Part shown: positions 26,620 through 43,238 of the stretch, piece by piece | Layout: the number at the start of each line of letters is the position of its first letter | Numbering within the stretch: the stretch's first letter is position 1 | From: Rhodobacteraceae bacterium (ex Bugula neritina AB1) | GTDB taxonomy: Bacteria; Pseudomonadota; Alphaproteobacteria; Rhodobacterales; Rhodobacteraceae | Length of the DNA stretch: 54,751 nucleotides | Direction: 5' to 3' | Assembly (NCBI GenBank): GCA_001730095.1 | Contig: MDLF01000052.1 | Coordinates: 1 to 54,751, forward strand | The notes under the pieces: model-generated | Database searches by the model: none | What the model was told of the DNA's origin: nothing | The model's input: only the letters and a program-made list of their open reading frames with translations | Translations under genes and position numbers: made by a program

Positions 26620-26784
26620 CTTAGTGGGGTTGAGTGGCAGCTTGGCGGGACAAGGACGAAACCGCTTTCGCGGTATTGGCGCTTGCGGCGTGTGTTGCGC
26701 ACCGATGTGAGCGGCGTGAATTTTGCGAACTGACGAACCTGTCTGACGATTGGGACCTTCTCAATCTGATGACAGGAGGTTTCG

Positions 26785-27695
26785 ATGTCAGATCATTATG
26801 TTCCGGCGCTGCGCCAGCGGTTTCTCGAAGATATGCGGATCAAGGGTCTGCAGCCGAAGACGCAGACGATGTACCTGCGGGCGATGCGCGAGTTCACGCG
26901 GTTCCTGGGGTATTCTCCGGATAGCGCCACGCCGGAGGAGTTGCGGGCGTTCCAGCTCGACATGAAGGATCGCGGTGTTGGCGGCCCGACCTTCAACAAC
27001 CGGCTGACGGTGCTGAGTTTCTTTTTTGCGACGACATGCCCGCGCCCGGAAATGAAGCGGCACATGCGCTATCAGCGGGCGGCAAAGAAAATCCCCGTGG
27101 TGCTGAGCGCCGAGGAGGTGGCGCGCATTCTCGAAGCGGCACCTGGTCCCGGGCTGAGGTACCGGGCCGCGTTCAGTGTGGCCTATGGCGGCGGGCTCAG
27201 GGCGAGCGAGGTCACGCATCTGAAGGTCGGTGATATCGACAGTGACCGCATGCTGATCCGGGTTGACCAGGGCAAGGGCCGAAAGGATCGGCACGTGATG
27301 CTGTCGCCGAGCTTGCTGGATCTGCTGCGCGACTATTACCGCGAAGCGCGCCCGGCCGGATGGTTGTTTCCGGGGCGCAACCGGGTCGATCCGATCTCGA
27401 CGCGGCAATTCAACCGGGCGTTTGGAGTGGCCTGTAACTTTGCCGAGATCAAGAAGAAGGTCTCGCCCCATACGTTGCGGCACAGCTTTGCCACCCATCT
27501 GCTCGAAGGCGGAACAGACATCCGGGTGATCTATTACACGGCAGTCGAAACGCCGTTTCGACGAGAGGGCAGGTGCTGCTGGGGCATGCCAAGCTGGAGA
27601 CAACGACGATTTACACCAAGGTGGCAACCAAGACGATCCGGGACGTAACGAGCCCGTTCGATCTGTTGGCAGGCCGGGAGGCTGGTTCCGGCTGA
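26785..27695 (+). pseudogene. Tyrosine site-specific recombinase, interrupted by a 38-bp palindromic insert
   Basis: Codes for a phage-integrase-family recombinase: N-terminal SAM-like domain (RFLEDMRIKGLQPKTQTMYL) and catalytic domain with GLRASEVTHLKVGDID (catalytic R) and SPHTLRHSFATHLLEGG (HxxR). The frame is broken after GTDIRVI by the insert at 27532-27569. Without those 38 bp the frame continues QVLLGHAKLETTTIYTKV, restoring the GH and the catalytic tyrosine, and stops at 27695. Apart from the insert the gene looks intact. Confidence 0.9.
27532..27569 (-). repeat. Palindromic insert, copy E (38 bp)
   Basis: Read on the minus strand: box CCCTCTC, arm GTCGAAAC, loop GGC, arm GTTTCGAC, box TGCCGTGTAATA. 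The 8-bp stem is perfect. It is antisense to the recombinase gene. The base sequence after the 3' box is GATC. Removing exactly these 38 bp rejoins the recombinase frame. Confidence 0.85.
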
Positions 27696-27705
27696 CGCCG
27701 GTCCA

Positions 27706-28908
27706 ATGCCTCGCCCCAAACTAGAGATCGCGGATATCTTCCGCGCGTATGGGCCTGCGTATCGTCAAGCGCATGCGGGGCACCTGAACCTGCCTCAGTT
27801 GAAGGTGATGTCCGCAATCGAGACCTGCCGGACCGCTGCGCTGGGTGGCCATGTTGCCGCCTGCACCAAATGCGGTCACCAGCACATCGCCTATAACTCC
27901 TGCCGCAATCGGCATTGTCCGAAGTGCCAGGGAGCAACCGCGCGGGACTGGATACAGGCAGGCATGGAAGACCTTCTGCCAGTGGAATACTTCCACGTGG
28001 TCTTCACTCTGCCAGCTCAGATTGCCGACATCGCGTATCAAAACAAGGCAGCGGTCTATGGCCTGCTGCTCAAGGCATCGGCGCAAACATTGCTGACCAT
28101 TGCGGCCGATCCAAAGCATCTCGGTGCCCGCATCGGCATGACCAGCGTGCTGCACACCTGGGGATCGGCGATGACGCACCACCCGCATGTGCATGTCATC
28201 GTGCCGGGCGGTGGGTTGTCGGCGGATGGCACCCGCTGGATCGCCTGCCGCCCGGGCTTCTTCCTGCCCGTGAAGGTCCTGTCGCGTCTGTTCCGGCGTT
28301 TGTTCCTCGAAGGGCTGGCCAGGCTGCACAAGGCGGGGAAACTGACGTTCTTCGGCAATCTGTCAGAGTTGGCCGGCCCGGATACCTTCCAGGCCCACCT
28401 CGCGCCACTGCGCAAAGCCGACTGGGTCGTGTACGCCAAACCACCCTTCGGCGGACCCGAAGCCGTGCTGGCCTATCTCAGCCGCTACACCCACCGGGTC
28501 GCCATCTCCAACCACCGGCTGATCAGCGCCGATGCCGGCACCGTGGCGTTCCGATGGAAAGATTACCGGATCAAGCGTGGTGATCGGATGAAGATCATGC
28601 GCCTGCCCACGGCCGAGTTCATTCGCCGGTTCCTGATCCACGTCCTGCCATCCGGTTTCCATCGCATCCGCCACGCCGGGTTCCTCGCCAACGGCATCCG
28701 CCGCAACAGGATCGAGACGATCAGGTGCTTGCTCGATGCAGAACCTGAACCTGGCACTTCGCCGGGTGAAGGGGAACGTGACAATCCCGCTGATCTGGAT
28801 GCCCACAAGCCTTGCCCGAAGTGCGGCGGTGCCATGATCATCATCGAGACCTTCAGCCGCGGCCAAACGCCCAAATCCCGCGCACCGCCATGGGAGGAGG
28901 CTGCATGA
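27706..28908 (+). CDS. tnpA: IS91-family rolling-circle transposase
   Basis: A 400-aa transposase: N-terminal zinc-binding region (CTKCGHQHIAYNSCRNRHCPKC, cysteines at about 53-74), the HUH-type metal motif in HHPHVHVIVPGGGLS, and the conserved catalytic-tyrosine segment AYLSRYTHRVAISNHRL. A second CxxC pair lies near the C-terminus (CPKCGGAM). It cuts and joins single DNA strands by a rolling-circle mechanism. The frame is intact, so the element may be able to move or mobilise relatives. Confidence 0.92.
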   Translation: MPRPKLEIADIFRAYGPAYRQAHAGHLNLPQLKVMSAIETCRTAALGGHVAACTKCGHQHIAYNSCRNRHCPKCQGATARDWIQAGMEDLLPVEYFHVVFTLPAQIADIAYQNKAAVYGLLLKASAQTLLTIAADPKHLGARIGMTSVLHTWGSAMTHHPHVHVIVPGGGLSADGTRWIACRPGFFLPVKVLSRLFRRLFLEGLARLHKAGKLTFFGNLSELAGPDTFQAHLAPLRKADWVVYAKPPFGGPEAVLAYLSRYTHRVAISNHRLISADAGTVAFRWKDYRIKRGDRMKIMRLPTAEFIRRFLIHVLPSGFHRIRHAGFLANGIRRNRIETIRCLLDAEPEPGTSPGEGERDNPADLDAHKPCPKCGGAMIIIETFSRGQTPKSRAPPWEEAA

Positions 28909-29108
28909 TCCAACCATCACACCCGGCCCCGCCATCCGGACGCGCCGGACCAGTCATTGCGGCCAGTCCACCAAAGCCGGCGCTGCAACACGCCCAAGGC
29001 GTCGGAGAAAAGCGCCGATGGGTGGCATCGGATCGGAAAAACCAGCGGGCCGGCGCTGATCGGCGTCGCAGACTTCGCAGCTCAGCGCATCGGCTTCCCA
29101 AGCCCTGA
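28905..29108 (+). CDS. Small open frame overlapping the end of the IS91 transposase
   Basis: A 67-aa frame starting ATGA at the transposase stop, with GGAGG upstream. It is rich in arginine, proline and alanine, with no recognisable domain. It may be a translated accessory frame of the element or simple read-through of the IS 3' region. Confidence 0.3.
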   Translation: MIQPSHPAPPSGRAGPVIAASPPKPALQHAQGVGEKRRWVASDRKNQRAGADRRRRLRSSAHRLPKP

Positions 29109-29160
29109 ACCACATTCCCCATAGAAACGAAATCCGCCCGCGCTTTCCTCCTTGTCAGAT

Positions 29161-30951
29161 TTATCGCCGCTGCAGCTCACGCTGACAGCAGCCACAAACC
29201 TTGGACATCTCCACCATCTTGTCCCGCATCACAAACTTCTGAGGTTTTCCAGTAATCGTCATTGGAAGTTCTTCAACAATGCGGATGTGGCGCGGTACTT
29301 TGAAGTGCGCAATCTGCCCTTTCAGCGCATTGCGAAGTTCGTCTTCGGTCAGGTCCACGCCGGGTTTGGCGATTGCCCAGGCACAGACTTCCTCACCGAA
29401 TTTCTCATCAGGAATGCCGAAGACCTGAACATCACTGACCTTTGGATGTCGCATAAGGTATTCCTCGATCTCGCGGGGATAGATGTTTTCGCCACCGCGG
29501 ATGATCATGTCCTTCACGCGGCCGACGATGGAGCAGAAACCTGTCTCGTCGAATACGGCAAGATCGCCGGTGTGAATCCAACCGTCCATGATGCTTTCAA
29601 CGGTTTTTTGGGTGTCATCCCAATATCCCTTCATAACCGAATAGCCACGGGTACACAGTTCCCCTTGCGTACCGACAGGGGCAATCCGCCCGTCCTGATC
29701 GATGATCTTGACCTCAAGATGGGGATGAACACGCCCCACCGTTTCACAGCGTTTGTCAGTGGGATCGTCAACGAAACTCTGGAAAGATACAGGCGAGGTT
29801 TCGGTCATCCCATAGCAGATCGTGACTTCTTTCATGTTCATGTTCATGTCCGTGTTCACGCGCTGCATGACCTCAACCGGGCAAGGGGCCCCGGCCATGA
29901 TGCCGGTGCGCATGTTGGATAGATCACGCGGATTACCTTCAAGATTTTCGAGCATCGCGACAAACATTGTTGGGACGCCGTAAAGGGCCGTACATCGCTC
30001 TTTCGACAGCGCATCTAATGTCTGCGCCGCATCAAAACCTTCGCCGGGGAAGATCATAGTCGCCCCTTTGCTGACCGCCCCGAGAACGCCCATCACCATG
30101 CCAAAACAGTGATAGAGTGGTACGGGGATAGCGAGCCGGTCCGTCTCGGACAGGCCCATGCGATCGGTCACATAGCGCGCATTGTTGACGATGTTGTAAT
30201 GCGAAAGCGTGGCCCCTTTGGGCATCCCGGTCGTACCGGAAGTGAACTGAATGTTGATCGCATCATCGGGACCAAGTGTCTTGTCAACCTCCGGCAACCG
30301 AAGTTGCTGGGCCGGGCCGCCAAGTTGCTGAAGCATGTCGAACGAATACGCGCCGGGGCCAGGCTGATCATCCATGACAATGACGCTGCGCAACTGCGGC
30401 AGTTTTGCAGCACGCAGTTGCCCCGGTTCGCAATCCTCAAGCTCGGGGGCCAGAGTGCGGATCATGCCTGAATAGTCGGAAGATTTGAATGACTTGGCCG
30501 CAATCAGGGCCTTGCAACCGACCTTGTTCAAGGCGTATTCCAGCTCACCCAAGCGGTAGGCGGGGTTAATGTTCACCAGAACAAGTCCGACACGGGCGGT
30601 GGCAAACTGGGTGAGCACCCATTCGAACCGGTTTGGCGACCAGATGCCGACCCTATCCCCCTTGCCCAGACCGAGCGCCAATAGCCCGGAGGCCAGTTCA
30701 TCAACGGCACGGTCCAGATCGTAATAGGTCATCCGGATACCCTGTTCAGGAAACACGGCGGCTTCTCTGGGGCCAAATCGCGAAACGGCATTCCGCAAAA
30801 GCTGGGGAATGGTGATATAGGCCAGTGGCGGGGTTGTGGGGCCCCGAACATAGGACATACCTTCTCGAGGCGCTGTGACATCAACGGTGGTCTCAACTCG
30901 CGCATCCCGATCAGGAATACGCACCGCCAGACGTTCGCTCAGGATTGACAT
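29161..30951 (-). CDS. AMP-dependent acyl-CoA synthetase (fatty-acid/carboxylate-CoA ligase)
   Basis: A 596-aa ANL-superfamily ligase: P-loop-like INIQFTSGTTGMPKGATLSH, ICYGMTETSPVSF, IHTGDLAVFDETGF, VGRVKDMIIRGGENIYPREI and the C-terminal lysine in TITGKPQKFVMRDK. It activates a carboxylic acid with ATP and CoA. Last gene of the minus-strand amide operon, 12 bp after the ATPase-amidase gene, so the acid released by the amidase is the likely substrate. The last residues (KVCGCCQRELQRR) are unlike usual family ends and run up to the IS91 unit, which may have replaced the original terminus. Confidence 0.9.
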   Translation of the reverse strand: MSILSERLAVRIPDRDARVETTVDVTAPREGMSYVRGPTTPPLAYITIPQLLRNAVSRFGPREAAVFPEQGIRMTYYDLDRAVDELASGLLALGLGKGDRVGIWSPNRFEWVLTQFATARVGLVLVNINPAYRLGELEYALNKVGCKALIAAKSFKSSDYSGMIRTLAPELEDCEPGQLRAAKLPQLRSVIVMDDQPGPGAYSFDMLQQLGGPAQQLRLPEVDKTLGPDDAINIQFTSGTTGMPKGATLSHYNIVNNARYVTDRMGLSETDRLAIPVPLYHCFGMVMGVLGAVSKGATMIFPGEGFDAAQTLDALSKERCTALYGVPTMFVAMLENLEGNPRDLSNMRTGIMAGAPCPVEVMQRVNTDMNMNMKEVTICYGMTETSPVSFQSFVDDPTDKRCETVGRVHPHLEVKIIDQDGRIAPVGTQGELCTRGYSVMKGYWDDTQKTVESIMDGWIHTGDLAVFDETGFCSIVGRVKDMIIRGGENIYPREIEEYLMRHPKVSDVQVFGIPDEKFGEEVCAWAIAKPGVDLTEDELRNALKGQIAHFKVPRHIRIVEELPMTITGKPQKFVMRDKMVEMSKVCGCCQRELQRR

Positions 30952-30963
30952 ATTGTTCCTCCC

Positions 30964-33321
30964 TTACATGTTGCGCCAGTCACCCGATTGCTCAAACGCA
31001 TCGGCGGCCTGATAGATCTTCATTTCCCCGAAATGCGGCCCGACCAGCATCATGCCAATGGGCAGGCCTTCGCTCAGGCCGCAGGGAATGCTCATGGCAG
31101 GCAATCCACCGTTAAAGGGCGCAGTATTTGGGACCATTTCAAAAGCCCGTTGCACATAAAGGCTCAGTGAGCAGTCCGCAGGTGGATGTGGCTGCGACTT
31201 GATCGGCAGCGTCGGCATCAACAGCAAATCATATTGCTTGAGTGCCGCCATATAGCGTTCATTGCAAAGCCGCATGATGTTCTGACCCTTGCCGTAGAAC
31301 CTGCCACGGTATTGCCGCTGGAAGTGCTCGCCCACAAACATGCAGGCCTTGAGCGAATGGCTCAGTTCATCCGCGCGGCCCTGCCATTGCGCCATGTGGT
31401 CGGTCATCGACGGCAGGAACAGGCCCCGGTAATTGGTGCCGGTCGAATTGCCCCACATCATACCGTCCTGAAGCCCTTCAAGCGTGATCGCGGTCCACGC
31501 GTCCATGGCGGTATAGTGTTCGGGGATGGAAACCTCTTCCACCCGGGCGCCCAGTTCGCGAAAACGGTCTGCCGCTTGCATGACCTTTGCGTCGACGTCG
31601 GGTTCAGAATTCTCGTGACTGAACCCTTCCTTCAGAATGCCGATCCGCATCCCCTGCGCCCCGCGTCCCAATGCCTCGGTATAGCTATAGACCGTGGGCT
31701 TGTACTGACGCGGATCAAGCCCGTCTTCGCCTGCCAGCACTTCCAGAAGCAGTGCATTGTCAGCGACTGTGCTGGTTACCGGTCCAAGATGGTCAATGGT
31801 TTGCTCAATCGGCATCGCGCCGGTGTAAGGCACAAGCCCGTGAGTTGGCTTCATCCCATAGACGCCGCAATTCGACGATGGAATGCGGATCGATCCGCCC
31901 TGATCCCCGGCGATGGCCATGTCGACCTCGCCCGCGGCCACCAGTGCGGCAGATCCACCGGAAGACCCGCCCGCCATATATCCGCGTTTCCATGGGTTGT
32001 GGATCGGCCCCTTGGCATTGGTATGCGAGCCGCCCGACAGGCAGAAGTTTTCGCAATGAGCCTTGCCTGTGATGACAGCGCCTTCATCCAGCATACGGGT
32101 CACAATGGTGGCGTCAATTTCGGGCGTATAACCCTCCATTATGGAAGAGCCATTCATCATCGGCACGCCAGCAAGGCAGATTGTATCCTTCAGCGCGATA
32201 CGTTTGCCGCGCAGCTTGCCATCCGGCGCACCGCGCACTTCGGTCTTAACATACCATGCGTTGAGCGAATTCTCGGTCGGTTTCGGGAAATGGCCGGGGC
32301 TACGGGGATAGCGGACCTCGGGCAGATAATCGGGCATCGCATCCAGACGGTCATAGGCCTGCATGTAGGGCTCGATGATCTCGCGGTACTCTTCCAGGTC
32401 CGCGTCCGACAGGCTCATCCCGAACCGGCTGGCCATGTCACGCATCTGCGAAAGGGTTGGTCGTTTTATGGTCATGTTCGTCACCACGCTTGCGGCAGCC
32501 GGTTGGGTCCGGGTTACTGCCTGAGATTTGGGTTGTGTCGCGGATACCGGCTGGGCCACAGGGAGCCCGCTGGCCTGACCACGGGTTGATCGGGCCGCCC
32601 CGAAGCCAAGGAATTGATTGACCTTAGCTTGATCGGACAAATCAGCTTTGCTGAGTTCCCCGGTAATGCGGCCACGTTCAAGGACGAGAACCCGGTCAGA
32701 AAGGTCTGAGATGAAGTCGAAATTCTGTTCGACCAGCAGTATGGAAAGCCCCCGGCTTTGGCGCAGGGCCAGCAGCGTTTCGCCCATCTCCTCAATGATC
32801 GAGGGTTGGATTCCTTCGGTCGGTTCATCCAACAGAAGGAAATCCGGATCGCCCATCAGGCACCGCGCTAGGGCCAGCAATTGTTGTTCACCGCCCGAGA
32901 GCGCCCCACCATCACGATCAAGCAGCGGGCGCAGGCGCGGAAAATCGGCCAGCACGGATTCCATAACATCACTTTCTGACGCGCCGACATATTCATGCCA
33001 GGCAAACCTCAGATTGTCGCGAACGCTCAGCTGCGGGAAGATGCCCCGCCCCTGAGGTACATAGCCCAGCCCCAAACCAGCACGCTCAAAGGGCGACATG
33101 CCCGTAATGTCGGTGGAATGAAACCGGATCGTCCCGGACCCCGCAGGCAGAAACCCCATGAGCGTTTTCAGCAAGGTGGTTTTACCCATGCCATTATGGC
33201 CAAGAATGCCAACGACCTCGTTTTCGGCAACTGCGAATTCGATCCCGTGCAGGATCGGCACCTTTCCATACCCGCCCGACACGCCCTTGATTTCGAGGAT
33301 ATTTGTCACGTCGTCACTCAT
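30964..33321 (-). CDS. Fusion of a branched-chain/urea-type ABC ATPase and an amidase-signature enzyme
   Basis: A 785-aa protein. Residues about 8-240 form a LivF/UrtE-type ATPase (Walker A GHNGMGKT, signature LSGGEQQLLALARCL, Walker B FLLLDEPTEGI). A Q/P/A/T-rich linker follows (about 250-280), then an amidase-signature domain from about residue 286 (TIKRPTLSQMRD) to the end. The catalytic triad is visible as K in RIALKDTICLAG, and serines in GGSSGGSAAL and GGSIRIPSS. The amidase hydrolyses an amide to acid and ammonia. In effect the importer carries its own hydrolase. ATG at 33321, 1 bp after the stop of the upstream ATPase gene. Confidence 0.9.
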   Translation of the reverse strand: MSDDVTNILEIKGVSGGYGKVPILHGIEFAVAENEVVGILGHNGMGKTTLLKTLMGFLPAGSGTIRFHSTDITGMSPFERAGLGLGYVPQGRGIFPQLSVRDNLRFAWHEYVGASESDVMESVLADFPRLRPLLDRDGGALSGGEQQLLALARCLMGDPDFLLLDEPTEGIQPSIIEEMGETLLALRQSRGLSILLVEQNFDFISDLSDRVLVLERGRITGELSKADLSDQAKVNQFLGFGAARSTRGQASGLPVAQPVSATQPKSQAVTRTQPAAASVVTNMTIKRPTLSQMRDMASRFGMSLSDADLEEYREIIEPYMQAYDRLDAMPDYLPEVRYPRSPGHFPKPTENSLNAWYVKTEVRGAPDGKLRGKRIALKDTICLAGVPMMNGSSIMEGYTPEIDATIVTRMLDEGAVITGKAHCENFCLSGGSHTNAKGPIHNPWKRGYMAGGSSGGSAALVAAGEVDMAIAGDQGGSIRIPSSNCGVYGMKPTHGLVPYTGAMPIEQTIDHLGPVTSTVADNALLLEVLAGEDGLDPRQYKPTVYSYTEALGRGAQGMRIGILKEGFSHENSEPDVDAKVMQAADRFRELGARVEEVSIPEHYTAMDAWTAITLEGLQDGMMWGNSTGTNYRGLFLPSMTDHMAQWQGRADELSHSLKACMFVGEHFQRQYRGRFYGKGQNIMRLCNERYMAALKQYDLLLMPTLPIKSQPHPPADCSLSLYVQRAFEMVPNTAPFNGGLPAMSIPCGLSEGLPIGMMLVGPHFGEMKIYQAADAFEQSGDWRNM

Positions 33322-33322
33322 C

Positions 33323-34039
33323 TCAGGCCTTCTTTCCAAGATATACGTTCCGCACGGTGGGATCGGACATGACACGGTCAACGTGTTCTTCCATCAATAC
33401 CTTTCCTTGATGGAACACTGTCACCTTCTCGGCAATTGAGCGTATGAACTTCATGTCATGCTCAACGATGATGATCGCAGCTGTCTTGTTCAGCTCATGG
33501 ATGATCTCTGTCATCCGCTCGACATCTTCGGCGCTCATCCCTGCTGCGGGTTCATCAAGTAGCACCAGCCACGGATCACCGACAGCAACCAGCCCAAGCT
33601 CAACGCGTTGTCGCTCGCCATGCGCCAACCGCCCAAGATCGTCCCGGGCAATCGAGCCTAGGGCCAGTCGCTCTATGATTTCCTGTGTCTTCCGGTTCGC
33701 GTCCTGCGGGTTGTGAAACCGCCTCGCCGCAAGCCAAATGTTTTCAAACACGCTGAGGCTGTCCATGACATTTGGGGTTTGCGTTTTGATACCCACGCCC
33801 ATCGAGGCGATCTGATGCGGCATCCAGTGGGTGGTTTCGACCCCGCGCATGTAAACCTCGCCTTCGGACGGTGTTTGTAGCCCAGTCACACATTTGAAGA
33901 AGGTGGACTTTCCGGCTCCGTTCGGGCCGATCAGGCAGCGCAGCTCGCGGGCTTGCAATTTGAAGTCGACGTTGTCGGAGGCAACCACGCCGCCAAAGCG
34001 CATGGTCAGCCCGTGAGTTTCCAGAACCGTTTCAACCAT
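33323..34039 (-). CDS. Branched-chain amino acid/amide-type ABC ATPase (LivG/UrtD-like)
   Basis: A 238-aa ATPase: Walker A GPNGAGKSTFF, LAHGERQRVELGLV in place of the standard LSGGQ signature, Walker B WLVLLDEPAAGMS, and IIIVEHDMKFI. The LAHGE variant signature is usual for UrtD-type subunits. It pairs with the ATPase half of the fusion protein. The start overlaps the upstream permease gene by 8 bp. Confidence 0.92.
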   Translation of the reverse strand: MVETVLETHGLTMRFGGVVASDNVDFKLQARELRCLIGPNGAGKSTFFKCVTGLQTPSEGEVYMRGVETTHWMPHQIASMGVGIKTQTPNVMDSLSVFENIWLAARRFHNPQDANRKTQEIIERLALGSIARDDLGRLAHGERQRVELGLVAVGDPWLVLLDEPAAGMSAEDVERMTEIIHELNKTAAIIIVEHDMKFIRSIAEKVTVFHQGKVLMEEHVDRVMSDPTVRNVYLGKKA

Positions 34040-35069
34040 TGGCGCCCCCCCGGTTTCTCATGCGGCGTTGCTGGTGAATGCGCCCCTGGGGGCGACGGCC
34101 AAAGCTAACCTTCCAAAGACCTGCCAGCGCCGGAACAATGCCTTTTGGCAGAAAGAGAACGAAGAGCACGAGGATCAGGCCGGTTATCAGTGTGTTGTCG
34201 ACCACACTCTGCTGTCCCAAAAGGAACTTCAGATAGGCCAGCCCAGCGGCCCCAAGGATCGGGCCAAAGCGCGTACCCAACCCGCCGACAATGCACCAGA
34301 TGATAATCTCGGCCGATTGGCCGAGCGAAAACAGGCTCGGGGTGACAATCTCGGCCCAGTTCGCAAACAATGCTCCCGCCAAGCCCGCAATGGCTGCCCC
34401 GACAGCGAACAGAACAGTTTTTCTTGCCCGGACGTCATAGCCCATGAGGGACATGCGGACCTCGTTTTCGCGAATGCCAACCGCAACGCGGCCAAAGCTT
34501 GATCTCAACAAAGCCGACACAAGGAAAAGCACCAATGCCAGCAGAACGGCGCAGACATAAAAATAGCTGTCACCCCAGATGTAGTCATCCGGACGACCGG
34601 GAATATTCAATGTCTGAAAGCCGGGGATGCCATTGAACCCGCCGAGCCGGGCGTTGCCGATCACATATTGCGGCCCTGCGGTCGAGTTGATGAATTTGAA
34701 CAGGATCAGTGTCACAACAAGGGTGATGACCCCAAGATAAACATCCGTCAGCCGCCCATAGAACATCATGGCACCCAAAAGTGCCGCGAATGCCGCTGGA
34801 ACGAGAACAGCCAAAAGCATCGGAAACGTGCTTTCACCGATGTTGATCGCGGCAATGGCATAGGTGTAGGCGCCCAGCCCAAAAAAAGCAGCCTGGCCAA
34901 AGCAGAGGATGCCGCCAAATCCCCAGATCAAACCAAGGCTTAGCCCCAGCATTCCGTAGACGATCAAAATGGTGAGCGTGTAGGTGCTGATCAATTGCGG
35001 CATAATCCAGATCAGGATGGCAGTGACGAGCAAAATCGTGATGGCGTCTTTTGACAGGCTCCCGGGCAT
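34032..35069 (-). CDS. Branched-chain/urea-type ABC permease (LivM/UrtC-like)
   Basis: A 345-aa inner-membrane protein with about ten hydrophobic segments and the LivM-type pattern GLSLGLIWGFGGILCFGQAAFFGLGA (as separate GLSLGLIWG and FGQAAFFGLGAY), VGIRENEVRMSLMGYDV and AGALFANWAEIVTP. It is the second half of the translocation pore with the gene upstream. It abuts that gene directly. Confidence 0.92.
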   Translation of the reverse strand: MPGSLSKDAITILLVTAILIWIMPQLISTYTLTILIVYGMLGLSLGLIWGFGGILCFGQAAFFGLGAYTYAIAAINIGESTFPMLLAVLVPAAFAALLGAMMFYGRLTDVYLGVITLVVTLILFKFINSTAGPQYVIGNARLGGFNGIPGFQTLNIPGRPDDYIWGDSYFYVCAVLLALVLFLVSALLRSSFGRVAVGIRENEVRMSLMGYDVRARKTVLFAVGAAIAGLAGALFANWAEIVTPSLFSLGQSAEIIIWCIVGGLGTRFGPILGAAGLAYLKFLLGQQSVVDNTLITGLILVLFVLFLPKGIVPALAGLWKVSFGRRPQGRIHQQRRMRNRGGANG

Positions 35070-35936
35070 TTAAAAATTTCCTTTGAAGAACTTGCCGGTA
35101 ATGCCCTGCGGCAGCAGGCGCAGAAGGACAACTGCGGCGACCAGAAGCGCGACTTCGCCAATCACCGGCGAAATGGCAAAGGTGAAAATCTGGTTCACGA
35201 TGCCGAAGAAACCAGCGCTTGAGAAAAGGCCTGCGATCAGGGACGGTCCACCTGCGATGACGGTAATGAAGGCCTTGGCAATGTAAGCCCCGCCGGATGT
35301 CGGCACGAGGCCAACAAGAGGGGCAAGAACAGCGCCGGCCAAACCAGAAAGCGCAGAGCCGCAAAAGAAGGTCGCCAAATAAATGCGATCGGGACTGTAA
35401 CCCAAGGCTGCCGCCATATCCGAGCGCTGCATCGCACCGCGTGCAATCAACCCGGCGCGCGTGGCCTTCAGGATTGCAAGCATCCCGATCAGCAACAGAA
35501 TGGCGATCACGATGATGAAGAAATTGTAGCCGTTAATCTGATAATTCCCGATGGCAAAGCCGGGGATTGGTGTCGAAATCCCGGTTGTTGTGTTGCCAAA
35601 GATCATGGTGGCAAGCCCGATGAAGAACAGGCTCAGGCCCCATGTCGCCAACATCGTATCGACCAGCCTGCCATACAAATGCCGAATGACCAGACGTTCG
35701 ACCACAAGCCCGATCAGGCCGACGACAATCGGGGCGATGATCAGCATGGCCATGAAAATGTTCACGCCAAGGTTTACGGCCGTGATGGTGGCGTACCCGC
35801 CCATCATCATGAATTCGCCATGGGCAAGGTTGATCACTTTCATCATGCCAAAAATAACCGCGAGTCCGGCACTGATCAGGATCAATGAGGCGACCGCGTA
35901 GAGCATTTCGACAAGAATGACGACGGTTAGGTCCAT
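35070..35936 (-). CDS. Branched-chain/urea-type ABC permease (LivH/UrtB-like)
   Basis: A 288-aa membrane permease: LISAGLAVIFGMMKVINLAHG is the LivH signature region, with GEFMMMGGYAT, RSDMAAALGYSPDRIYLATF and SGLAGAVLAPL further on. I used the ATG at 35936 (MDLTVVILVE); an upstream start at 35963 is possible. It imports the ligand of the binding protein encoded upstream. Confidence 0.92.
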   Translation of the reverse strand: MDLTVVILVEMLYAVASLILISAGLAVIFGMMKVINLAHGEFMMMGGYATITAVNLGVNIFMAMLIIAPIVVGLIGLVVERLVIRHLYGRLVDTMLATWGLSLFFIGLATMIFGNTTTGISTPIPGFAIGNYQINGYNFFIIVIAILLLIGMLAILKATRAGLIARGAMQRSDMAAALGYSPDRIYLATFFCGSALSGLAGAVLAPLVGLVPTSGGAYIAKAFITVIAGGPSLIAGLFSSAGFFGIVNQIFTFAISPVIGEVALLVAAVVLLRLLPQGITGKFFKGNF

Positions 35937-36024
35937 GGGTGTGCGTATCCGTTGGAAAGACAAGTGGCCCGGTCATGGGCGTGAGGGGCGACAATGCCAC
36001 CGCCCCGCCGAAATCTGCGGGAGA

Positions 36025-37245
36025 TCAGAATTCGATTTCGTACTGGGTGTTGTCGTCCGGGTTGGCTGAAAGATCGCACACCGCCTGCGTGTCGATTGGC
36101 TGGCGCTGTGGCAGCGTTTCGATTACCTTCATACCCTGGTTTTCAAATTCCATGATGTGTACATCCAGAACCGCATGGTGCGTTCTCGGATCGACCGTGA
36201 CCTTGCCAGCCGGGCCATCAATCGACAGCCCAGATTCCAGAGCAGAAATCAATGCATCGCGATCCACCGACTCTGCCTGACGTACGGCTTCGGCCCAGGT
36301 CATCACTCCCTGATAGTTCGATACGGCGATCTCGTGAATCAGGTCGCTGTCGCCATAGGCGGCGGCCCAGCGATCCTTGAAGACGTTGTTCGCAGGTGTG
36401 TCAAGCTCCTGACTGTAGTTGTAGGCAACCATGATCCCGTTACCTTCCTCGGGCGTCAGAACTTTGTGCTCGTTGCCCACACCCAAAGTGGTCGAAGCCA
36501 GAGGAATGCGGCCTTTCATGCCAGCGGCGGCCCATTGACGGAAGAACGACAGATGCGCGCCGCCTACCAGCGGAGCAATCACCAGATCGGGACCAACGGA
36601 CTGGATTTTTGCGATCGTGGACCCGAAGTCGCTGACGTCCAGCGGGAAGAAATCGACGCCCACGGTCTCGCCACCATTGTCGGCCACAAACTTCTGAATC
36701 CAGCGTGCGGTGATCTGACCATAGTTATAGTCGGCAGCGAGGATGTAGACTTTCTTGCCTGACTTACCCATGGCGTATGGAACCAGCGCCTCAACCTGCT
36801 GCGCCGGCGTTACCCCGTTGATAAAGATGTTCCGGTCACAAACCCCACCTTCGTAAAGAACATTGTAGAAGTACGGCGTCTTGGTCTTGCGCATCGTCTG
36901 ACGGATCGCTTCACGCGAGGCCGACAGAATGCCACCATGCACAACATCCACCTTGTCCTGACGTGTCAGTTGCTGACCGTATTGCGAATAAAGCGCCATG
37001 TCGGACTGGGTGTCATAGGCTACGACTTCGACCTGTTTGCCCAGCAGACCACCTGCGGCATTGATTTCGTCTACGGCCAGACGCGCGGCCATGTCCATCG
37101 GCTTGCCATAAGCGTCAAAAATGCCGGATGTATCCAGAATCGAACCCAGCTTGATCGTGTCTGCGGCCATCACGATGCGAGGCAACATCGAAGCCCCTGC
37201 AAAGGCTGCGCTGCTGGCCAGGAAGTTTCGGCGGTTCAGTGACAT
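36025..37245 (-). CDS. UrtA/FmdD-like periplasmic amide- or urea-binding protein
   Basis: A 406-aa binding protein with a twin-arginine-like signal (MSLNRRNFLASSAAFAGASM) and a type I periplasmic-binding fold: IKLGSILDTSGIFDAYGKPM, VVAYDTQSDMALYSQY, YFYNVLYEGGVCDRNIFING and KKVYILAADYNYGQ. It resembles the urea/short-chain-amide group (UrtA, FmdD, AmiC) more than leucine-binding proteins, matching the amidase in the operon. The start at 37245 is fixed by the signal peptide. Confidence 0.9.
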   Translation of the reverse strand: MSLNRRNFLASSAAFAGASMLPRIVMAADTIKLGSILDTSGIFDAYGKPMDMAARLAVDEINAAGGLLGKQVEVVAYDTQSDMALYSQYGQQLTRQDKVDVVHGGILSASREAIRQTMRKTKTPYFYNVLYEGGVCDRNIFINGVTPAQQVEALVPYAMGKSGKKVYILAADYNYGQITARWIQKFVADNGGETVGVDFFPLDVSDFGSTIAKIQSVGPDLVIAPLVGGAHLSFFRQWAAAGMKGRIPLASTTLGVGNEHKVLTPEEGNGIMVAYNYSQELDTPANNVFKDRWAAAYGDSDLIHEIAVSNYQGVMTWAEAVRQAESVDRDALISALESGLSIDGPAGKVTVDPRTHHAVLDVHIMEFENQGMKVIETLPQRQPIDTQAVCDLSANPDDNTQYEIEF

Positions 37246-37295
37246 TTCAGTTTCCTCCCTAATGTCGATCCTGTTGGATGGACGGTGTTTTCCCG

Positions 37296-38912
37296 TCACT
37301 TCTCGTTCTTTGGTTTGTCTTTGATACGATTGGCGTAATCAGCGGTCCGGCCGGCCAAATTGGCATCGAAATCAAGGCCGATCTCTTCGCCCATCTGTTT
37401 CATCGCGGGCAGGCGTACGGCCATCCCAAGAATTTGATTCATCGCCGCGCCAAATGCGCCATCCACGCCTTCTCCCGCGCCAGAGCCATTGCTGCCGCCC
37501 GCGCCAGAGATCTGGTTGATCTTGATCGAGTCGATCTTTTCGACCGGTTTCATCATCTGCGTCATGATTTCCGGCAAGCGGTCCAGTTTACGCTCTTCCA
37601 GACGCATCCGGATAACCGCTTCATCAAGCGTGTTCTCGGCCTGATTCAGTGCAATGCGTCCTGCGGCCTCGGCCTCCATGCGGGCACGTTCCGCTTCGCT
37701 GGCCTTGGTTTTTGCGACGGCATCAGCCTTGGCCTTCTCAAGCAGGGTTTCGACGTCGCTCTTGACCTTTGCGCTTTCGAGCGCGAGGTCTTTTTCCTGC
37801 TTCAGACGGGCGATTTCCCCTTCACGCTCTGCGACGGCACGTTCTTTCTGCGCCTGAACGCTTTCCACGGCCAGGATTACCTTGGCTCGGGCCTCTTCCT
37901 CTTCTGCCCGCGCTTCGGCTTCGGCTGCGCGTTTGCGGGCGATCAGAATATCGTTTTCGATCTTTTCTTCTTCGAGGGTGCGAATGGCCGCCATCTCGGC
38001 CTTGCGTAGCGCTTCGTCGCTTGCCACCTGTGTCGCCTTAACCCGCTTTTCGTTCTCGATCCGGGTCGTTTCGCTGGCAAGTTTCGCTTCGTCCCGCGCG
38101 CGTTCTTCCCGCGACTTGGCATCTGCTTCCAGCTTGGCCAATTGCTCCTGCTGTGCGATCTCGGCTTCACGTTCTGCACGTTGCAATTCAAGCTGCCGCT
38201 GATGCTGGGCCAGATGGCTTTCACGAACAGCAACCTCGGCCTCGGTTTCGATGCGAATGCGTTCTTTGCGTTGATCGGCGACCAATTCCGCCAATTGGCG
38301 CATTCCTTGCGCATTGAAGGCGTTGTTCTCATTCCATTGGCTCAGGTCGCTCTGATCAACGGCGATCAAGGAAGCTGAAACCAGCGTCAGACCCAGTTTC
38401 GCGGCCTGAGTTTCGATGGCCTCTGCCACGTCCGTGGAAAACCCTGAGCGATCCAGATGAATGTCTTCCAACGTTCGCGCCGCAGCCGCGCGTTGAATGG
38501 CGTCCACAAGCGAACCTGCAAGGACATCCTTGACGGTATCTCCGCCACGCGCGATCCGTGATCCCAAAGCTTGCGCAGCCGTTGAAATGCCTTCGTCAGT
38601 TGGTGCAACACGAAGTTCGAATTCAAACTGCACATCTGCACGCATCTTGTCGCGCGTCAGAACGGCGTCCCGTCCCATCCGGTTGATCCCAAACGCCAGC
38701 GCCCCCATCGACACTTTCTGAACCTGATGCAAAATAGGAAGAGACAGACAGCCGCCATCGGTGACAACACGGCGCCCGCCGAACCCGGTTCTGACCAACG
38801 CGGTGTCCAAAGTTGCTTTCGCGTAGTATCTTTGCAGAAACCATATCGCGATCAGCGCGACGGCAGCCAGCAGAACCAGCGTGATGACCCAAGCCAAGGC
38901 AATTCTCCCCAT
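37296..38912 (-). CDS. Flotillin-like SPFH/band-7 protein
   Basis: A 538-aa membrane-anchored protein: one N-terminal transmembrane helix (ALAWVITLVLLAAVALIAIW), SPFH/band-7 domain (about 40-210; ALVRTGFGGRRVVTDGG), and a long charged coiled coil (about 210-440) rich in E, A, K and R. The C-terminus carries GAGGSNGSGAGEG. Flotillins organise membrane microdomains. First gene of the amide-uptake operon, 50 bp before the binding protein, so it may scaffold the importer; that role is inference. Confidence 0.88.
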   Translation of the reverse strand: MGRIALAWVITLVLLAAVALIAIWFLQRYYAKATLDTALVRTGFGGRRVVTDGGCLSLPILHQVQKVSMGALAFGINRMGRDAVLTRDKMRADVQFEFELRVAPTDEGISTAAQALGSRIARGGDTVKDVLAGSLVDAIQRAAAARTLEDIHLDRSGFSTDVAEAIETQAAKLGLTLVSASLIAVDQSDLSQWNENNAFNAQGMRQLAELVADQRKERIRIETEAEVAVRESHLAQHQRQLELQRAEREAEIAQQEQLAKLEADAKSREERARDEAKLASETTRIENEKRVKATQVASDEALRKAEMAAIRTLEEEKIENDILIARKRAAEAEARAEEEEARAKVILAVESVQAQKERAVAEREGEIARLKQEKDLALESAKVKSDVETLLEKAKADAVAKTKASEAERARMEAEAAGRIALNQAENTLDEAVIRMRLEERKLDRLPEIMTQMMKPVEKIDSIKINQISGAGGSNGSGAGEGVDGAFGAAMNQILGMAVRLPAMKQMGEEIGLDFDANLAGRTADYANRIKDKPKNEK

Positions 38913-38974
38913 TTGATCAATCGCCGGACCTGCGGCCCGCGACTTATTCGTTCGTCAAAGCGTGGGAGAATTTA

Positions 38975-39009
38975 ATTTCCATTTCAAGTATTTTATTTGA
39001 AATGGAAAT
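38975..39009. promoter_or_regulatory. 13-bp inverted repeat in front of the flotillin/amide operon
   Basis: ATTTCCATTTCAA (38975-38987) and TTGAAATGGAAAT (38997-39009) are perfect inverted arms with a 9-bp AT-rich spacer. The site lies 62 bp or more upstream of the flotillin start, in the 119-bp gap behind the AmiC-like gene. It fits an operator better than a terminator, since no T-run follows in GC-rich context. Confidence 0.65.
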
Positions 39010-39031
39010 CGAAACTACTTAAGAGTCTGTT

Positions 39032-40132
39032 TTATAATTCTTTTATTACCTCTAGATTTAGGCCGTCAGCGCGCGCAAGGTAGATAGGCGCCCGTTCACT
39101 CTTGTTGGCAGACAACTGCTTGCGCCCACTTCGATGAATCACTGGCAGGGCATCCGAAACACTCCGCTCGCGCCAAACTGTCGCGTGCCGCTGCATCAAT
39201 CCAGCCAGAAAATGCACCCCTTCATAGGTAGACTGACCCAAGGTGTTCAGAACCGGCGCATGATCGCCATGCACCCGGTAATATTTTTCCTTGAACGCGG
39301 CATTTGCTTCCGTCGGCAGCCCGCCAAAATAGGATGACGCGGCAAACATGCGTTGGCTGTTGCTTGCACCGCATCCTAGCAAACAGTTCTCATCAAGTGC
39401 GCAAGACAGCCGGACCATCCGGTCATGCAGTTTTGCCGTACCAAATGCCCGATTGAAAGTGACCGCGTCCTGACCAATCAGAGAGATCAGAACAGCCTCT
39501 GCGCCTGATCTGGAAATCTCTTCCACGAATTGGCTCATGCTTTTCAGGCCGAAGGGAAGGTACTTTTCATAGGCCAAACCAACTGACATCTCCTGAAGTT
39601 TGGCCTTGGCATAACTGTGTGACGTTCTGGGCCAGACATAGTCGTTGCCGATCAACGCCCAGCTTCGGGGTCGATATTCGTTTTGCAGATGCTCCATTGA
39701 CGGACCAAGCTGTTCATCAGGCGTTTCACCAATGGCGAACAAACCATCAGTTCGCTCGCCCCCCTCGTAGAGTGGCGTGTAAATGTATGGGATCCGCTGA
39801 CGAACGATTTTGCTGAGCCGATGGCGGATCGAACTGAGATGCATCCCGACGATAGCGTCGATCGACTCCGTTTCGATCAGGTCATTTACAGTCTCTTCAA
39901 TCGAGATGCTCGCTTCCATAGCGGCGTCTATCATAATCAGCTGCACCTTGCGGCCATCGATGCCGTTGGTCCGGTTCAACTCCTCGACCGCGACCTGAGC
40001 GCTTGAGATACATGACGGCGCCCAGAGCCCCGCTGCACCGCACAAAGGAATAAGGAGAGCGATCCGATAGCTTCCTTTCCCGCGCAACACCGGATTGTCG
40101 CGCAGTTCCTCAAGCTCGGTTGGTACAGCCAT
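39032..40132 (-). CDS. AmiC-like cytosolic amide sensor/negative regulator
   Basis: A 366-aa protein with the same type I binding fold as the UrtA-like protein but no signal peptide: YRIALLIPLCGAAGLWAPSC, DAIVGMHLSSIRHRLSKIV, IPYIYTPLYEGGE, WALIGNDYVWPRTSHSYAKA. This is the pattern of AmiC, the cytosolic amide sensor that controls the Pseudomonas aliphatic amidase operon by holding the antiterminator AmiR. No AmiR (ANTAR) gene is in the window, so it may act with the divergent MarR regulator or with an unlinked partner. Upstream of the operon on the same strand. Confidence 0.82.
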   Translation of the reverse strand: MAVPTELEELRDNPVLRGKGSYRIALLIPLCGAAGLWAPSCISSAQVAVEELNRTNGIDGRKVQLIMIDAAMEASISIEETVNDLIETESIDAIVGMHLSSIRHRLSKIVRQRIPYIYTPLYEGGERTDGLFAIGETPDEQLGPSMEHLQNEYRPRSWALIGNDYVWPRTSHSYAKAKLQEMSVGLAYEKYLPFGLKSMSQFVEEISRSGAEAVLISLIGQDAVTFNRAFGTAKLHDRMVRLSCALDENCLLGCGASNSQRMFAASSYFGGLPTEANAAFKEKYYRVHGDHAPVLNTLGQSTYEGVHFLAGLMQRHATVWRERSVSDALPVIHRSGRKQLSANKSERAPIYLARADGLNLEVIKEL

Positions 40133-40244
40133 AAGCGTCGTCAAAGTGGCACAGCCCTTTCAAGACTTCTCAGGGATCGCTACATACCAATTGATTTTAC
40201 TTTCCAAGTCAAATAAATTCAGCCTGTCAAAAACAGGTGCCCCA
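40133..40244. promoter_or_regulatory. Divergent promoter region between the AmiC-like and MarR genes
   Basis: 112 bp between divergent starts, AT-rich in the middle. The stretch 40201-40215, read on the minus strand, is TATTTGACTTGGAAA. It resembles TATTTGAAATGGAAA at the right arm of the inverted repeat at 38975-39009, so both may bind the same regulator, most simply the MarR protein. Confidence 0.5.
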
Positions 40245-40670
40245 ATGCAAACGAGCCCAAGTTCAATTCAGGACTATCTTTCCTATGCCCTAGCTGCGGC
40301 ACATCGAAAGATGTCTGCATCGTTGAACACACGTCTAAAGCAACACGGAATTCAGATCGAAGCATGGCGCATTCTTGAGACATTGGAGGTAGACCAACGT
40401 TTGACCATGGGACAGCTTGCCGAGGTCGTTTTGATGAACCCGCCAACGCTGACCAAACTGGTGGACCGGATGGTTTCGGATGGCCTAGTACACCGGCAAG
40501 TGGCGCAGGTTGATCAACGACAAATCAACGTACTTCCCACCGCGCTTGGCAAAAAACGAATGCTGCAAATCCGGCAGGAAGTGCAAGAACAGGATGCGGA
40601 ATTCCAATCCCTGCTCGGAAAGGAAGAGGCCGACAAACTCATCGAGCTTTTGCGCGGAGTGGTTCAATAG
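40245..40670 (+). CDS. MarR-family transcriptional regulator
   Basis: A 141-aa winged-helix regulator: IEAWRILETLEVDQRLTMGQL, AEVVLMNPPTLTKLVDRMVSDG (recognition helix), LVHRQVAQVDQRQINVLPTA (wing) and C-terminal dimer helix. It is divergent from the AmiC-like gene, as expected for a local regulator of the amide operon. The start at 40245 follows CAGGTG; the frame upstream runs into the divergent gene. Confidence 0.88.
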   Translation: MQTSPSSIQDYLSYALAAAHRKMSASLNTRLKQHGIQIEAWRILETLEVDQRLTMGQLAEVVLMNPPTLTKLVDRMVSDGLVHRQVAQVDQRQINVLPTALGKKRMLQIRQEVQEQDAEFQSLLGKEEADKLIELLRGVVQ

Positions 40671-40945
40671 CGCTTCAACCGCAAGATCACGATCAACATC
40701 GTATACCGACGCACTGAATTGGTTCTGGTGGACCGACTTGACAAAGCCGACCTTCACCCAAACCAAACGGATGGCGGCTCAGTTCCGAACCTGTAGATTG
40801 CCGCTGACAACCTAGGGTCAGGACTCATAGCCAATAGATGACGAGCGCGGCAAGCGCGATGGCTGAGAGGAAGACTTTTAGGCATCTGTCGTATCGGGTT
40901 GCTACACGCCGCCAATCCTTGAGCCGACCAAACATGATCTCGCAT

Positions 40946-40986
40946 CACTGCCCAGCAGTGCATTGCGCAGCAATGTCACGAGAGGG
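40946..40986 (-). repeat. Palindromic insert, copy A (41 bp)
   Basis: Read on the minus strand: box CCCTCTC, arm GTG-A-CATTGC, loop TGC, arm GCAATG-CAC, box TGCTGGGCAGTG. The single A is unpaired. It splits the transposase between KRRYKRRNR and MFGRLKDW. The junction is one base from exact. Confidence 0.8.
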
Positions 40987-41273
40987 GCGATTGCGTCGTT
41001 TGTAGCGCCGCTTGTCGTATTTTACCTTTGTCTTGCGCTGTTTCCTGCCAGGGATACAGGCGCGTATCCCTTTGCCCTGCAACGCTTTTCGGAACCAATC
41101 GGCTTCATAACCGCGATCCCCAAGCAGCCAGTCGACATCCGGCAGACTGCTCAACAAAGCCCGTGCCCCGATATAATCGCGAACCTGTCCAGCGGTCACG
41201 AACAGGTTGAGAGGGCGTCCCTGGCTGTCGCAGATGGCATGCAGCTTGGTGTTCATGCCGTCCTTGGTGCGCC

Positions 41274-41314
41274 CCCTCTCGGGACATTGCTGCGCAATGC
41301 CCTGTCGGGCAAGG
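41274..41314 (+). repeat. Palindromic insert, copy B (about 41 bp)
   Basis: Read on the plus strand: box CCCTCTC, arm GGG-A-CATTGC, loop TGC, arm GCAATG-CCC, box TGTCGGGCAAGG, followed by GATC. It is antisense to the transposase. Removing it, within one base, rejoins the conserved RGRLIGRTKDGM motif. Confidence 0.82.
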
Positions 41315-42047
41315 GATCAGGCGTCCACGCCCCCCTTTTTGACGCCCAAGCTGGTCGCGGTGCGGTGGGCCTTCAGATACGTCGCGTCGATCAACACAGT
41401 CTTCTCTTCACCATGTTCGGCAGCTGGCCCCGCCATCATACGGGCGAAGATGCCCTTGTCGCTCCACCGCTTCCAACGGTTGTATAGCGTCTTGTGTGGG
41501 CCATAGGCAGCAGGGGCATCGCGCCACCTTAAACCATTGCGATTGATAAAATAATACCGCTAAGAACACGTCTATCATCAACGCGGGGCTTGCCATGGGA
41601 CTTGGGAAAGAATGGCTCAAGACGCGCCATCTGCACGTCGCTCAACCAGAAAAGATCAGACATGTTCACCGCTCGTTTTTCGAAGCGTGAATCACGTAGA
41701 AAAGCGGAAATCAATGGGTCCTGACCCTATCAGGCCGCTGAATTAGTCAGGTCAGCAGGACGCTGTTCGCCCTGATGGGATGAGTTGCCTCATCGATCTT
41801 CGGGATCGGGTGGCTGGAAGCGGGCCCGTGGCCGCCTCATCCAGCCTCATACCGCCAACAACCGGGGTAGCCGAGCGAGATTTCCTGCGGCGCGTGTGAG
41901 AATGAAACGGGATCGCACGCGTTCGACGCCGCGATGGAGGGTCTGGGACATGCCGCCAACGGTCTTGGCTCAGCCAAACGCCTCCTCTATCCTCTTGCGG
42001 TGCTTCTGGGACAGGGCATAGCCTTTGTGCCTGGTTGTGCGCCCGTC

Positions 42048-42085
42048 CGCTGCCCGGCAGGTGAAGGGCACATTCACCGAGAGGG
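42048..42085 (-). repeat. Palindromic insert, copy C (38 bp)
   Basis: Read on the minus strand: box CCCTCTC, arm GGTGAATG, loop TGC, arm CCTTCACC (one mismatch), box TGCCGGGCAGCG, followed by GACG. Removing it rejoins ATC-GAC exactly (I-D in HSAIDGRTTRH). Confidence 0.85.
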
Positions 42086-42617
42086 GATTGCTGAATGCCG
42101 CGCCTTCCTGGCGACGTGTGGGGTGACGCAGGCCTGGCGGGGATCCGCGACGAATTCGGCCGCATCGTATCCTTTGTCGGCTCCTAAGGTCAGCTGCCGG
42201 GTCGATCCGGGGGAGTGGCGGTGCAGCATGTCCAGCGCAGCCCTGCGCTCGGCGCGGCCGTCAGCGCGGGTCAGGTCGCCTTGAACAACCAGCCCGTGCC
42301 GGTTCTCCATCAGCGCATGCCCCATGAAGCACAGCACCTGTGCCCGCGGATTTCTTATAGAGCCGTGCATCCGGGTCGGTGACCGAAGCATGGGTCGCAT
42401 TCGAACGCTTCTCGCCTTTGAAGTTGACTTCCGGATTGCGGCTGCGGCGAGTGGCGTGGGGCATTGGAGCGGTCTCAGGTTCGGTCTGGGCGGGCTGTAT
42501 GGCGGGGTTAACAGACGTCGGGGGCGGGTCGTCCGGACCATCATCGCCGGGCGGCGTGTCCGCTGCCTTTGGCTGGAAGCTCTTCATCGACGCCCAGGCC
42601 TTGACCAGCGTGCCATC

Positions 42618-42658
42618 CATTGCCCGGCAGGCGATTGCAAAGCAATCTGCCGAAAGGG
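42618..42658 (-). repeat. Palindromic insert, copy D (41 bp)
   Basis: Read on the minus strand: box CCCTTTC, arm GGC-A-GATTGC, loop TTT, arm GCAATC-GCC, box TGCCGGGCAATG, followed by GATG. Removing it rejoins GTC-GAT exactly (V-D in HFSVDGTLVKAW). Confidence 0.87.
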
Positions 42659-43238
42659 GACCGAGAAGTGGTCGTCCGACAGGAGCGGCGCGACCTCGCG
42701 ATGCGCCAGAATTGCCGCCATCACCTTGCGCGACATATCGGCTGTCAGCAGCCGGTCGCGGTTCTTGGTGAACACGGTCGGCGCCCACACCGGATCGTCG
42801 ATCCCGAGGCCCAGGAACCAGCGGAACAGCAGGTTATACTGCATCTGTTCCATCAACTGCCGCTCGGAGCGGATTGAGAACAGGATTTGGATCAGGCGCG
42901 CCCGGATCAGCCGCTCCAGCGGGATCGAGGGGCGGCCGAAATCGGTGTAGAGCGCCTCGAAATCGGCATCCAGACTGGCCAGCGCATCGTTGACCACCTG
43001 CCGGATCTTCCGCAGCGGGTGCCGCGCGGGGATGCGCTCTTTCAGATCGACATAGCTGAAAAGCGATCCGCTCGCTTCGTCCGTCCCGCGCGTCATCACC
43101 CCCGCCGAAATTGTGCTCAGGATGAATCATGTTCCTCAGACCGCGTCGAGAGCCGACTTCTTCAGCGGCCTGTTAGAATCACGCTATGCTCACGCTGGCT
43201 TTGCAAACCTCTCCAAAGTTGTATTTCGGGAGGGGACA

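Follow-up and report, generated by a model that had tools for sequence, protein, structure and literature searches.

Small hairpin inserts in insertion sequences of Rhodobacteraceae form a probable family of miniature mobile elements

We analysed a stretch of 54,751 nucleotides from Rhodobacteraceae bacterium (ex Bugula neritina AB1) (assembly GCA_001730095.1, contig MDLF01000052.1; this whole stretch is called the window), in which five palindromic inserts of 38 or 41 nt interrupt transposase and recombinase genes. Comparison with other genomes suggested that these inserts probably belong to one family of non-autonomous miniature mobile elements that are recognised by their hairpin, ride in insertion sequence (IS) elements and are moved by an enzyme supplied in trans. 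The comparison showed many independent insertions, nearly all of the sampled ones in IS genes. The insert begins with CCCTCTC, followed by a variable hairpin with a loop of about 3 nt, a TGCCGGGCA box and a 3-nt tail, mostly RYG, which is a feature added to the earlier description. Most inserts are 34-45 bp long, and copies are mostly single. The five copies that a sequence-only reading of the window had reported were all present at their positions (a slash marks the insertion point in a motif):

40946..40986, minus strand: element A, 41 nt, in an IS427/IS5-type transposase gene (KRRNR/IEIMF), on the gene's own strand, plus one extra base
41274..41314, plus strand: element B, 41 nt, in the same IS427/IS5-type transposase gene as A (RLI/GRT), on the strand opposite to the gene
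42048..42085, minus strand: element C, 38 nt, in an IS1182-like transposase gene (HSAI/DGRT), on the gene's own strand
42618..42658, minus strand: element D, 41 nt, in the same IS1182-like transposase gene as C (HFSV/DGTL), on the gene's own strand
27532..27569, minus strand: element E, 38 nt with a degenerate 3' box, in an IS91-associated tyrosine recombinase gene, on the strand opposite to the gene (covariance model E value 2.8e-5)

When C, D and E were taken out, the protein motifs rejoined as that reading had stated (HSAI/DGRT, HFSV/DGTL and RVI/QVLLGHA). B had been said to restore its motif within one base, and it was found to be one base short of its homologues, at the C run of its left end. 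Element A had one base more than its cleanly inserted relatives (L043 and L245; L and G numbers are our handles for loci and genomes); insert and base together make 42 nt, with a TGA in frame. The weakest copy was E, with the 3' box TGCCGTGTA and the tail ATA. A scan of the window against Rfam at gathering scores returned a tRNA as the sole match and none for the inserts.

We built a covariance model from 13 copies; since these included the five window copies, the model scores of the latter are not independent evidence. At E<=0.01 the model matched 30 times in the window's genome and 96 times in a Leisingera relative of the same genus (G002). A strict pattern found 12 matches in the window's genome and 0 in the reversed control; 11 were shared with the model, and the remaining one (C1:35582) is probably a chance match. 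A 15-base pattern for the 3' end gave 73 matches in two of three genomes and 0 in the control. In G002, 52 of 54 such 3' ends coincided with full elements matched by the model. Among 30 loci read in G002 and G006, three 3' ends had no normal 5' box, two of them having altered boxes and one being chance-like. No longer element bearing these ends was found in the loci and genomes examined.

Covariance-model matches (E<=0.01) were found in 29 of 61 relatives, comprising 29 of the 37 within Rhodobacteraceae and 0 of the 24 outside. When Rhodobacteraceae were sampled at about one genome per genus, 97 of 248 genomes contained at least one match (E<=0.001, stricter filters). A pattern scan of 84,980 species genomes gave at least 118 matching stretches. 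Six of the 80 matches listed from that scan had titles outside Rhodobacterales (Vreelandella neptunia twice, Pseudomonas jessenii, Rhizobium straminoryzae, and metagenome-assembled genomes of Hyphomicrobiales and Rhizobiaceae), and the hairpin was present in five of these six, the one without it being Pseudomonas jessenii (L073). Plasmid copies were plentiful: one element type had 108 records and another 88, chiefly from Pseudosulfitobacter, Sulfitobacter, Leisingera and Phaeobacter. No match covering at least 80% of the query was found in a phage collection. A looser pattern matched 62 stretches in the viral_contigs set, a number near chance by rough estimate, and these were not built upon.

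Unique sites were counted with an element finder that applies an energy (fold) filter, which also underlies the larger covariation set below; it called 115 of the 127 pattern matches in the loci of the species-genome scan. Some called lengths of 42-47 contain an extra C or mis-called ends, and L284 is a false call by eye. The raw counts (177; 402) are not independent because the loci overlap. Among the loci compared, homologous empty sites were obtained for 160 of 245 unique sites. The net change across these 160 comparisons was none in 99, one base lost in 39, two lost in 8, one gained in 9 and other in 5. At the 98 sites with a homologue of at least 80% identity, 56 showed no net change, 32 one base lost, 5 two lost and 5 a gain, and the closest filled and empty pairs were 97.9, 97.1 and 95.7% identical. 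Filled sites showed no target duplication relative to homologous empty sites, as in a simple insertion. The sequence-only reading had anticipated many further copies with the same boxes and variable stems, and transposase homologues lacking exactly these bases; both were found, the copies in related genomes and close homologues without the extra bases. Its proposal of mobile mini-elements with no gene of their own is supported by copy number and by the empty sites.

The right junction was nearly constant. The left junction varied mostly by the length of its C run in alignments read by eye, with a base changed or lost in a minority. Insertion occurred mostly between C and GAY (C/GAY), a target rule that is new relative to the earlier description. 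Because the pattern used for the species genomes itself demands GGAY, the target statistics were redone on 88 other sites, from loci found without any flank requirement: C stood at -1 in 70, G at +1 in 71, A at +2 in 60, and T or C at +3 in 72. Insertion sites were not clearly more structured than nearby CGAY sites (160 sites, p 0.19, mean rank 0.56 vs 0.5), and a preference for hairpin-prone targets was rejected as the site rule on this near-equal rank.

We then examined the fold. In 35 distinct cores of 41-mers, fetched by their boxes alone with no fold filter, 96.2% of the cells were paired, compared with a mean of 72.9 and a maximum of 77.8 in 200 shuffles. Double changes were seen in 61 cells of these cores, a number that fell to 0-12 once the partner strand was slid, and position 11 was an unpaired A in 34 of the 35. 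The other unfiltered length classes behaved alike, with 87.3% paired in 37-mers (shuffle maximum 69.0), 90.2% in 39-mers (82.1) and 92.3% in 43-mers (77.7); the longer forms have one unpaired A, three pairs up the stem. In the fold-filtered set, covariation was tested in four length classes that together make up 131 of its 193 distinct cores. Its 65 41-mer cores were 94.9% paired (shuffles at most 75.2%) with the unpaired A in 61, and the first pair was often A-C in the two shorter length classes. These results indicate that the stem sequence is free while pairing and the unpaired A are kept.

To describe the hosts, 30 of the 70 unique sites in G000 and G002 were sampled and 20 host open reading frames (ORFs) were scanned against Pfam; these 20 were hand-picked from the 30, with repeats of one gene and badly chosen ORFs left out. 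Sixteen belonged to transposase or integrase families (rve, DDE_Tnp_1, DDE_Tnp_1_5, DUF4096, IS66, IS110 and Y2_Tnp), four of them below the cut-off; two others had weak helix-turn-helix (HTH) matches, one had nothing and one was a sugar-nucleotide dehydratase gene. Another 20 ORFs had been scanned earlier in other genera, chosen in order of locus among 64 loci sampled out of 95. Twelve of these 20 fell into transposase, integrase, IS-helper or IS3-type HTH families, two of them below the Pfam cut-off, and several of the rest were short or antisense ORFs. IS family names that go beyond Pfam are those we presume for the hosts. Judged by these matches, the sampled hosts are nearly always IS elements. 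The host genes in the window are as follows:

26785..27648, plus strand: tyrosine recombinase ORF interrupted by element E; Phage_integrase PF00589
27706..28908, plus strand: IS91-family Y2 transposase of element E's host element, 400 aa, ORF open
40945..41714, minus strand: IS427/IS5-type transposase pieces hosting A and B; DDE_Tnp_1 on 40945-41256 and DUF4096, below cut-off, on 41529-41714
42074..43099, minus strand: IS1182-like transposase pieces hosting C and D; DUF772 on 42584-43099, and 42074-42544 without a Pfam match

Annotated 290-aa homologues of the recombinase broken by E occur in Dinoroseobacter and Roseicitreum. As a separate observation, IS91-type elements (window about 26646-29207; L326-L328, L394-L407) begin with a variable-stem hairpin near conserved bases, which we list as another case of kept shape with free sequence.

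The second clear host was an intergenic structured repeat of about 120 bp plus arms in Rhodobacteraceae, which was found empty (e.g. L331, L338, L342, L346, L353, L357) and filled at C/GAT (L133, L329, L330, L332, L095, L097). Its arms, GCCAGACC..GGTCTGGC, lie inside a longer stem (CGCGATC..GATCGCG). The repeat loci searched had no Rfam match at gathering score, and we list them as a separate family, either of structured repeats or of RNAs. At or near its 3' end, L349 and L343 carry another small hairpin insert (GTCATGC..GCATGAC) in opposite orientations, possibly a second family of tiny hairpins. Downstream of the sugar-nucleotide dehydratase gene, G000 and G002 share a 34-nt copy in the same position (L019, L285), and a further 34-nt copy, apparently intergenic, was seen in L057; these 34-nt copies are perhaps old insertions or look-alike terminators.

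We next considered whether the element moves by itself or only with its hosts. The 274 sites fell into 179 target classes in many IS families. The class LLI/DSTG in IS5-type transposases held at least five element types in 17 sites, and MI/DATY held several in 6 sites. At LLI/DSTG, an identical 41-mer (41/41) occupied the G007 IS copies L372-L375, of which L374 and L375 were much alike, as well as L047 and L271. In the first 30 nt on each side, the flanks of these identical 41-mers were 63-93% identical (7-37% different). Identical 41-mers at the same codon of diverged IS5-type hosts indicate that the element moves on its own, since neither shared inheritance with the IS nor long-tract conversion accounts for flanks so diverged. 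Gene conversion as the sole mode of spread was rejected because the identical elements at LLI/DSTG had no conversion tract beyond the junction. One 41-mer type was also found at several unrelated sites in G002. Relative to the host gene, 112 inserts lay on the same strand and 81 on the opposite one (193 clear calls); at symmetric targets (RTC/GAY) 21 of 28 were inserted in the gene sense, and no reversed copy was found among the LLI/DSTG sites compared. That old inserts now spread only with IS copies and gene conversion between them is the least probable of the explanations weighed here: element types are enriched by target class and the 8 IS427 sites of the element A kind that were listed share one type with small variants, but the number of target classes, the identical elements in diverged hosts and the G002 41-mer type speak against it.

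IS copies carrying the insert have multiplied. In G002, an IS5-type IS with four inserts (L251 and its copies) was present in at least 7 near-identical copies, and even after joining its reading frame was broken, which makes help in trans probable. In G003, all 8 copies of an IS3-type element were filled and 99.2-100% alike, and the joined ORF of 326 aa was open in all 8. These copies lay at no fewer than 7 separate places; two shared a longer duplicated stretch, and the other flanks differed. When the whole G003 genome was searched with a 451-nt piece, no copy lacking the insert turned up; the search otherwise returned only a 78% relative, which has an insert at this site too, and one 79% fragment. 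Either the helper of this element was lost or the insert does not abolish its activity. Insert length was a multiple of three in 14 of 139 cases, and frame preservation was rejected as a general rule on this count. In two IS427-type loci (L151:3854 and L105:921), an additional base brings the insert into frame, so that it is read through and contributes 14 residues (KRRNR-PSRD..CTAGQ..-EIMFGRL); element A of the window is of the same type.

Given a stem that keeps its pairing and the unpaired A while its sequence varies freely, we suggest that a trans-acting enzyme would recognise the moving form as a folded single strand, a DNA hairpin. Cutting and rejoining at C/GAY would then leave an insert without duplication, and IS elements may offer both a safe place to land and transport between genomes. 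Several points weigh against this reading. The covariation that suggests single-strand recognition would also fit RNA, and comparison of Y1, Y2 and RVT_1 profiles with element counts across genomes yielded no mover or autonomous partner. The empty sites are homologues, not alleles at the same locus, and movement was never directly observed. Twelve of the 127 pattern matches had no good hairpin, most of them resembling decayed elements, and the rarity of intergenic hits is left without explanation. Finally, element types are tied to target class, with a mean core similarity within classes of 0.68 vs 0.51 (500 permutations, maximum 0.60), which implies that the spread is partly due to inheritance together with the IS or to homing of particular donors to matching sites.

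Among other explanations, it is unlikely, though less so than for the rest, that the Y2 (HUH) transposase of IS91-type elements moves the inserts. Its counts correlated best with element counts among the three enzymes tested (rho 0.76, p 3e-7, 32 genomes), IS91 left ends likewise bear a variable-stem hairpin by eye, and HUH enzymes act on single strands, which fits. IS91 is itself a host, however, so IS load confounds the correlation. Y2 had no match in G007, G011 and G033 (20, 11 and 19 elements), and the IS91 ends have no box in common with the element; on these two grounds the enzyme was rejected as the mover.

Slightly less likely still is an RNA-mediated process, in which hairpin RNA would be copied into DNA at the target, or the insert would be removed from mRNA or skipped in translation, keeping the IS active. 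The contrast between the right and left junctions is in its favour, but by eye much of the left variation is C-run length. The eight filled G003 copies with an open joined ORF and no unfilled counterpart also suit it; the extra base that opens the frame in L151 and L105, however, would be needless if the insert were removed, and both orientations occur while few lengths are multiples of three. RVT_1 had no match in G000, G002, G003, G007, G011, G019 and G022 (each with at least 11 elements), and reverse transcriptase was rejected as the mover for its absence from several element-rich genomes.

We regard it as quite improbable that the inserts are repeats like the repetitive extragenic palindromes (REPs), moved by a Y1 transposase of the IS200/IS605 or REP-associated tyrosine transposase (RAYT) kind. 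The inserts resemble typical Y1 substrates, which are small hairpins that have an unpaired base and leave no target duplication, and Y1 counts correlated weakly with element counts (rho 0.45, p 0.01, 32 genomes). The inserts nevertheless have no GTAG or CGTC tag and are not extragenic, and PF01797 had no match in G002 (96 elements), G019 (40), G007 (20), G033 (19), G022 (12) and G011 (11); its absence from these genomes, several of them rich in the element, led us to reject Y1 as the mover. Slightly more improbable again is a host defence in which hairpins are inserted to silence IS elements. The hosts are almost only IS genes, and hot spots include LLI/DSTG and MI/DATY, motifs that we take to hold the first catalytic Asp. 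Against such a defence, filled IS copies multiply, insertions also occur in the structured intergenic repeat, and no linked system turned up, although no systematic search for one was made.

The sequence-only reading knew of no described family with these boxes, and none appeared among the papers listed in our full-text searches, which excluded most subscription papers and all preprints. As given in the accessible text of Di Nocera 2013 (PMC3733652), the CGTC-tagged REPs of Alphaproteobacteria, including the Rickettsia palindromic elements (RPEs) RPE-4 and RPE-6, are 20-40 bp hairpins with an unpaired end tag (CGTC, TGTC or CCTC), stems of 8-9 bp starting with AT, loops of 4-5 nt and a CCA tail; they are mostly head-to-head dimers and mostly intergenic, with few, fortuitous links to transposase genes. 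By that account, they share with the present family the tiny hairpins with varying stems and loops, the lack of a known dedicated transposase and some copies in genes. The present family differs in its CCCTCTC and TGCCGGGCARYG boxes, its unpaired A, loops of about 3 nt and mostly single copies; its sequences show no such tag, stem, loop and tail, and the sampled copies lie in IS genes instead of in intergenic head-to-head dimers. RPEs, in the parts of PMC2229807 and PMC10969869 available, are about 105-150 bp long and lie in frame in ordinary genes. They are also palindromic inserts in coding genes, and copies of the L151 and L105 type are likewise in frame, but only through the extra base; this family is mostly 34-45 bp, usually breaks the frame (14 of 139 lengths divisible by three) and lies in IS genes. 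Miniature inverted-repeat transposable elements (MITEs; PMC10969869), also among the nearest described elements, are likewise non-autonomous and repeated; those bacterial MITEs reviewed in the part of PMC2229807 at hand measure about 100-200 bp. Compared with these accounts, this family is shorter and inserts simply, without target duplication, and it has no terminal inverted repeats shared with an IS, the 5' CCCTCTC and 3' TGCCGGGCARYG not being mutual inverted repeats.

GTAG REPs and REPINs with RAYT are likewise tiny, non-autonomous hairpins. This family, in contrast, is intragenic, has no GTAG tag by the hairpin and needs no RAYT, with no PF01797 match in six element-bearing genomes. Like IS200/IS605 elements it inserts without duplication beside a fixed short target (mostly C/GAY), but it has one hairpin instead of separate end hairpins, and Y1 is absent from several element-rich genomes. 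It does not resemble an IS91 derivative, as its ends are unlike those of the resident IS91 elements. Integron attC sites are also hairpins that are recognised by their structure and carry extrahelical bases, while the sequence of their stem is free; R or L boxes were not visible by eye, with no attC model or integrase search applied.

Miniature palindromic mobile elements are thus already known as a kind, and the niche is what is unusual; this analysis adds the scale of the family, its niche in IS elements, the rule for its targets, the covariation and the preference for certain sites. A bolder version of the idea of a trans-moved hairpin element, which we consider speculative and unlikely, would make it a site-selective, homing-like hairpin parasite dedicated to IS elements and using novel chemistry. 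In its boldest form, suggested by the 8 of 8 filled copies in G003, a filled IS would still make transposase and spread like an empty one.

If the inserts are indeed mobile, few known families of mobile DNA would be smaller, and nothing in the literature searched described a niche of this kind, within other transposons. Identifying the mover could open the way to a compact insertion system that is directed by a hairpin and leaves no duplication. Many broken IS genes in Rhodobacteraceae genomes are accounted for by these inserts, which could also trace how IS elements travel horizontally.

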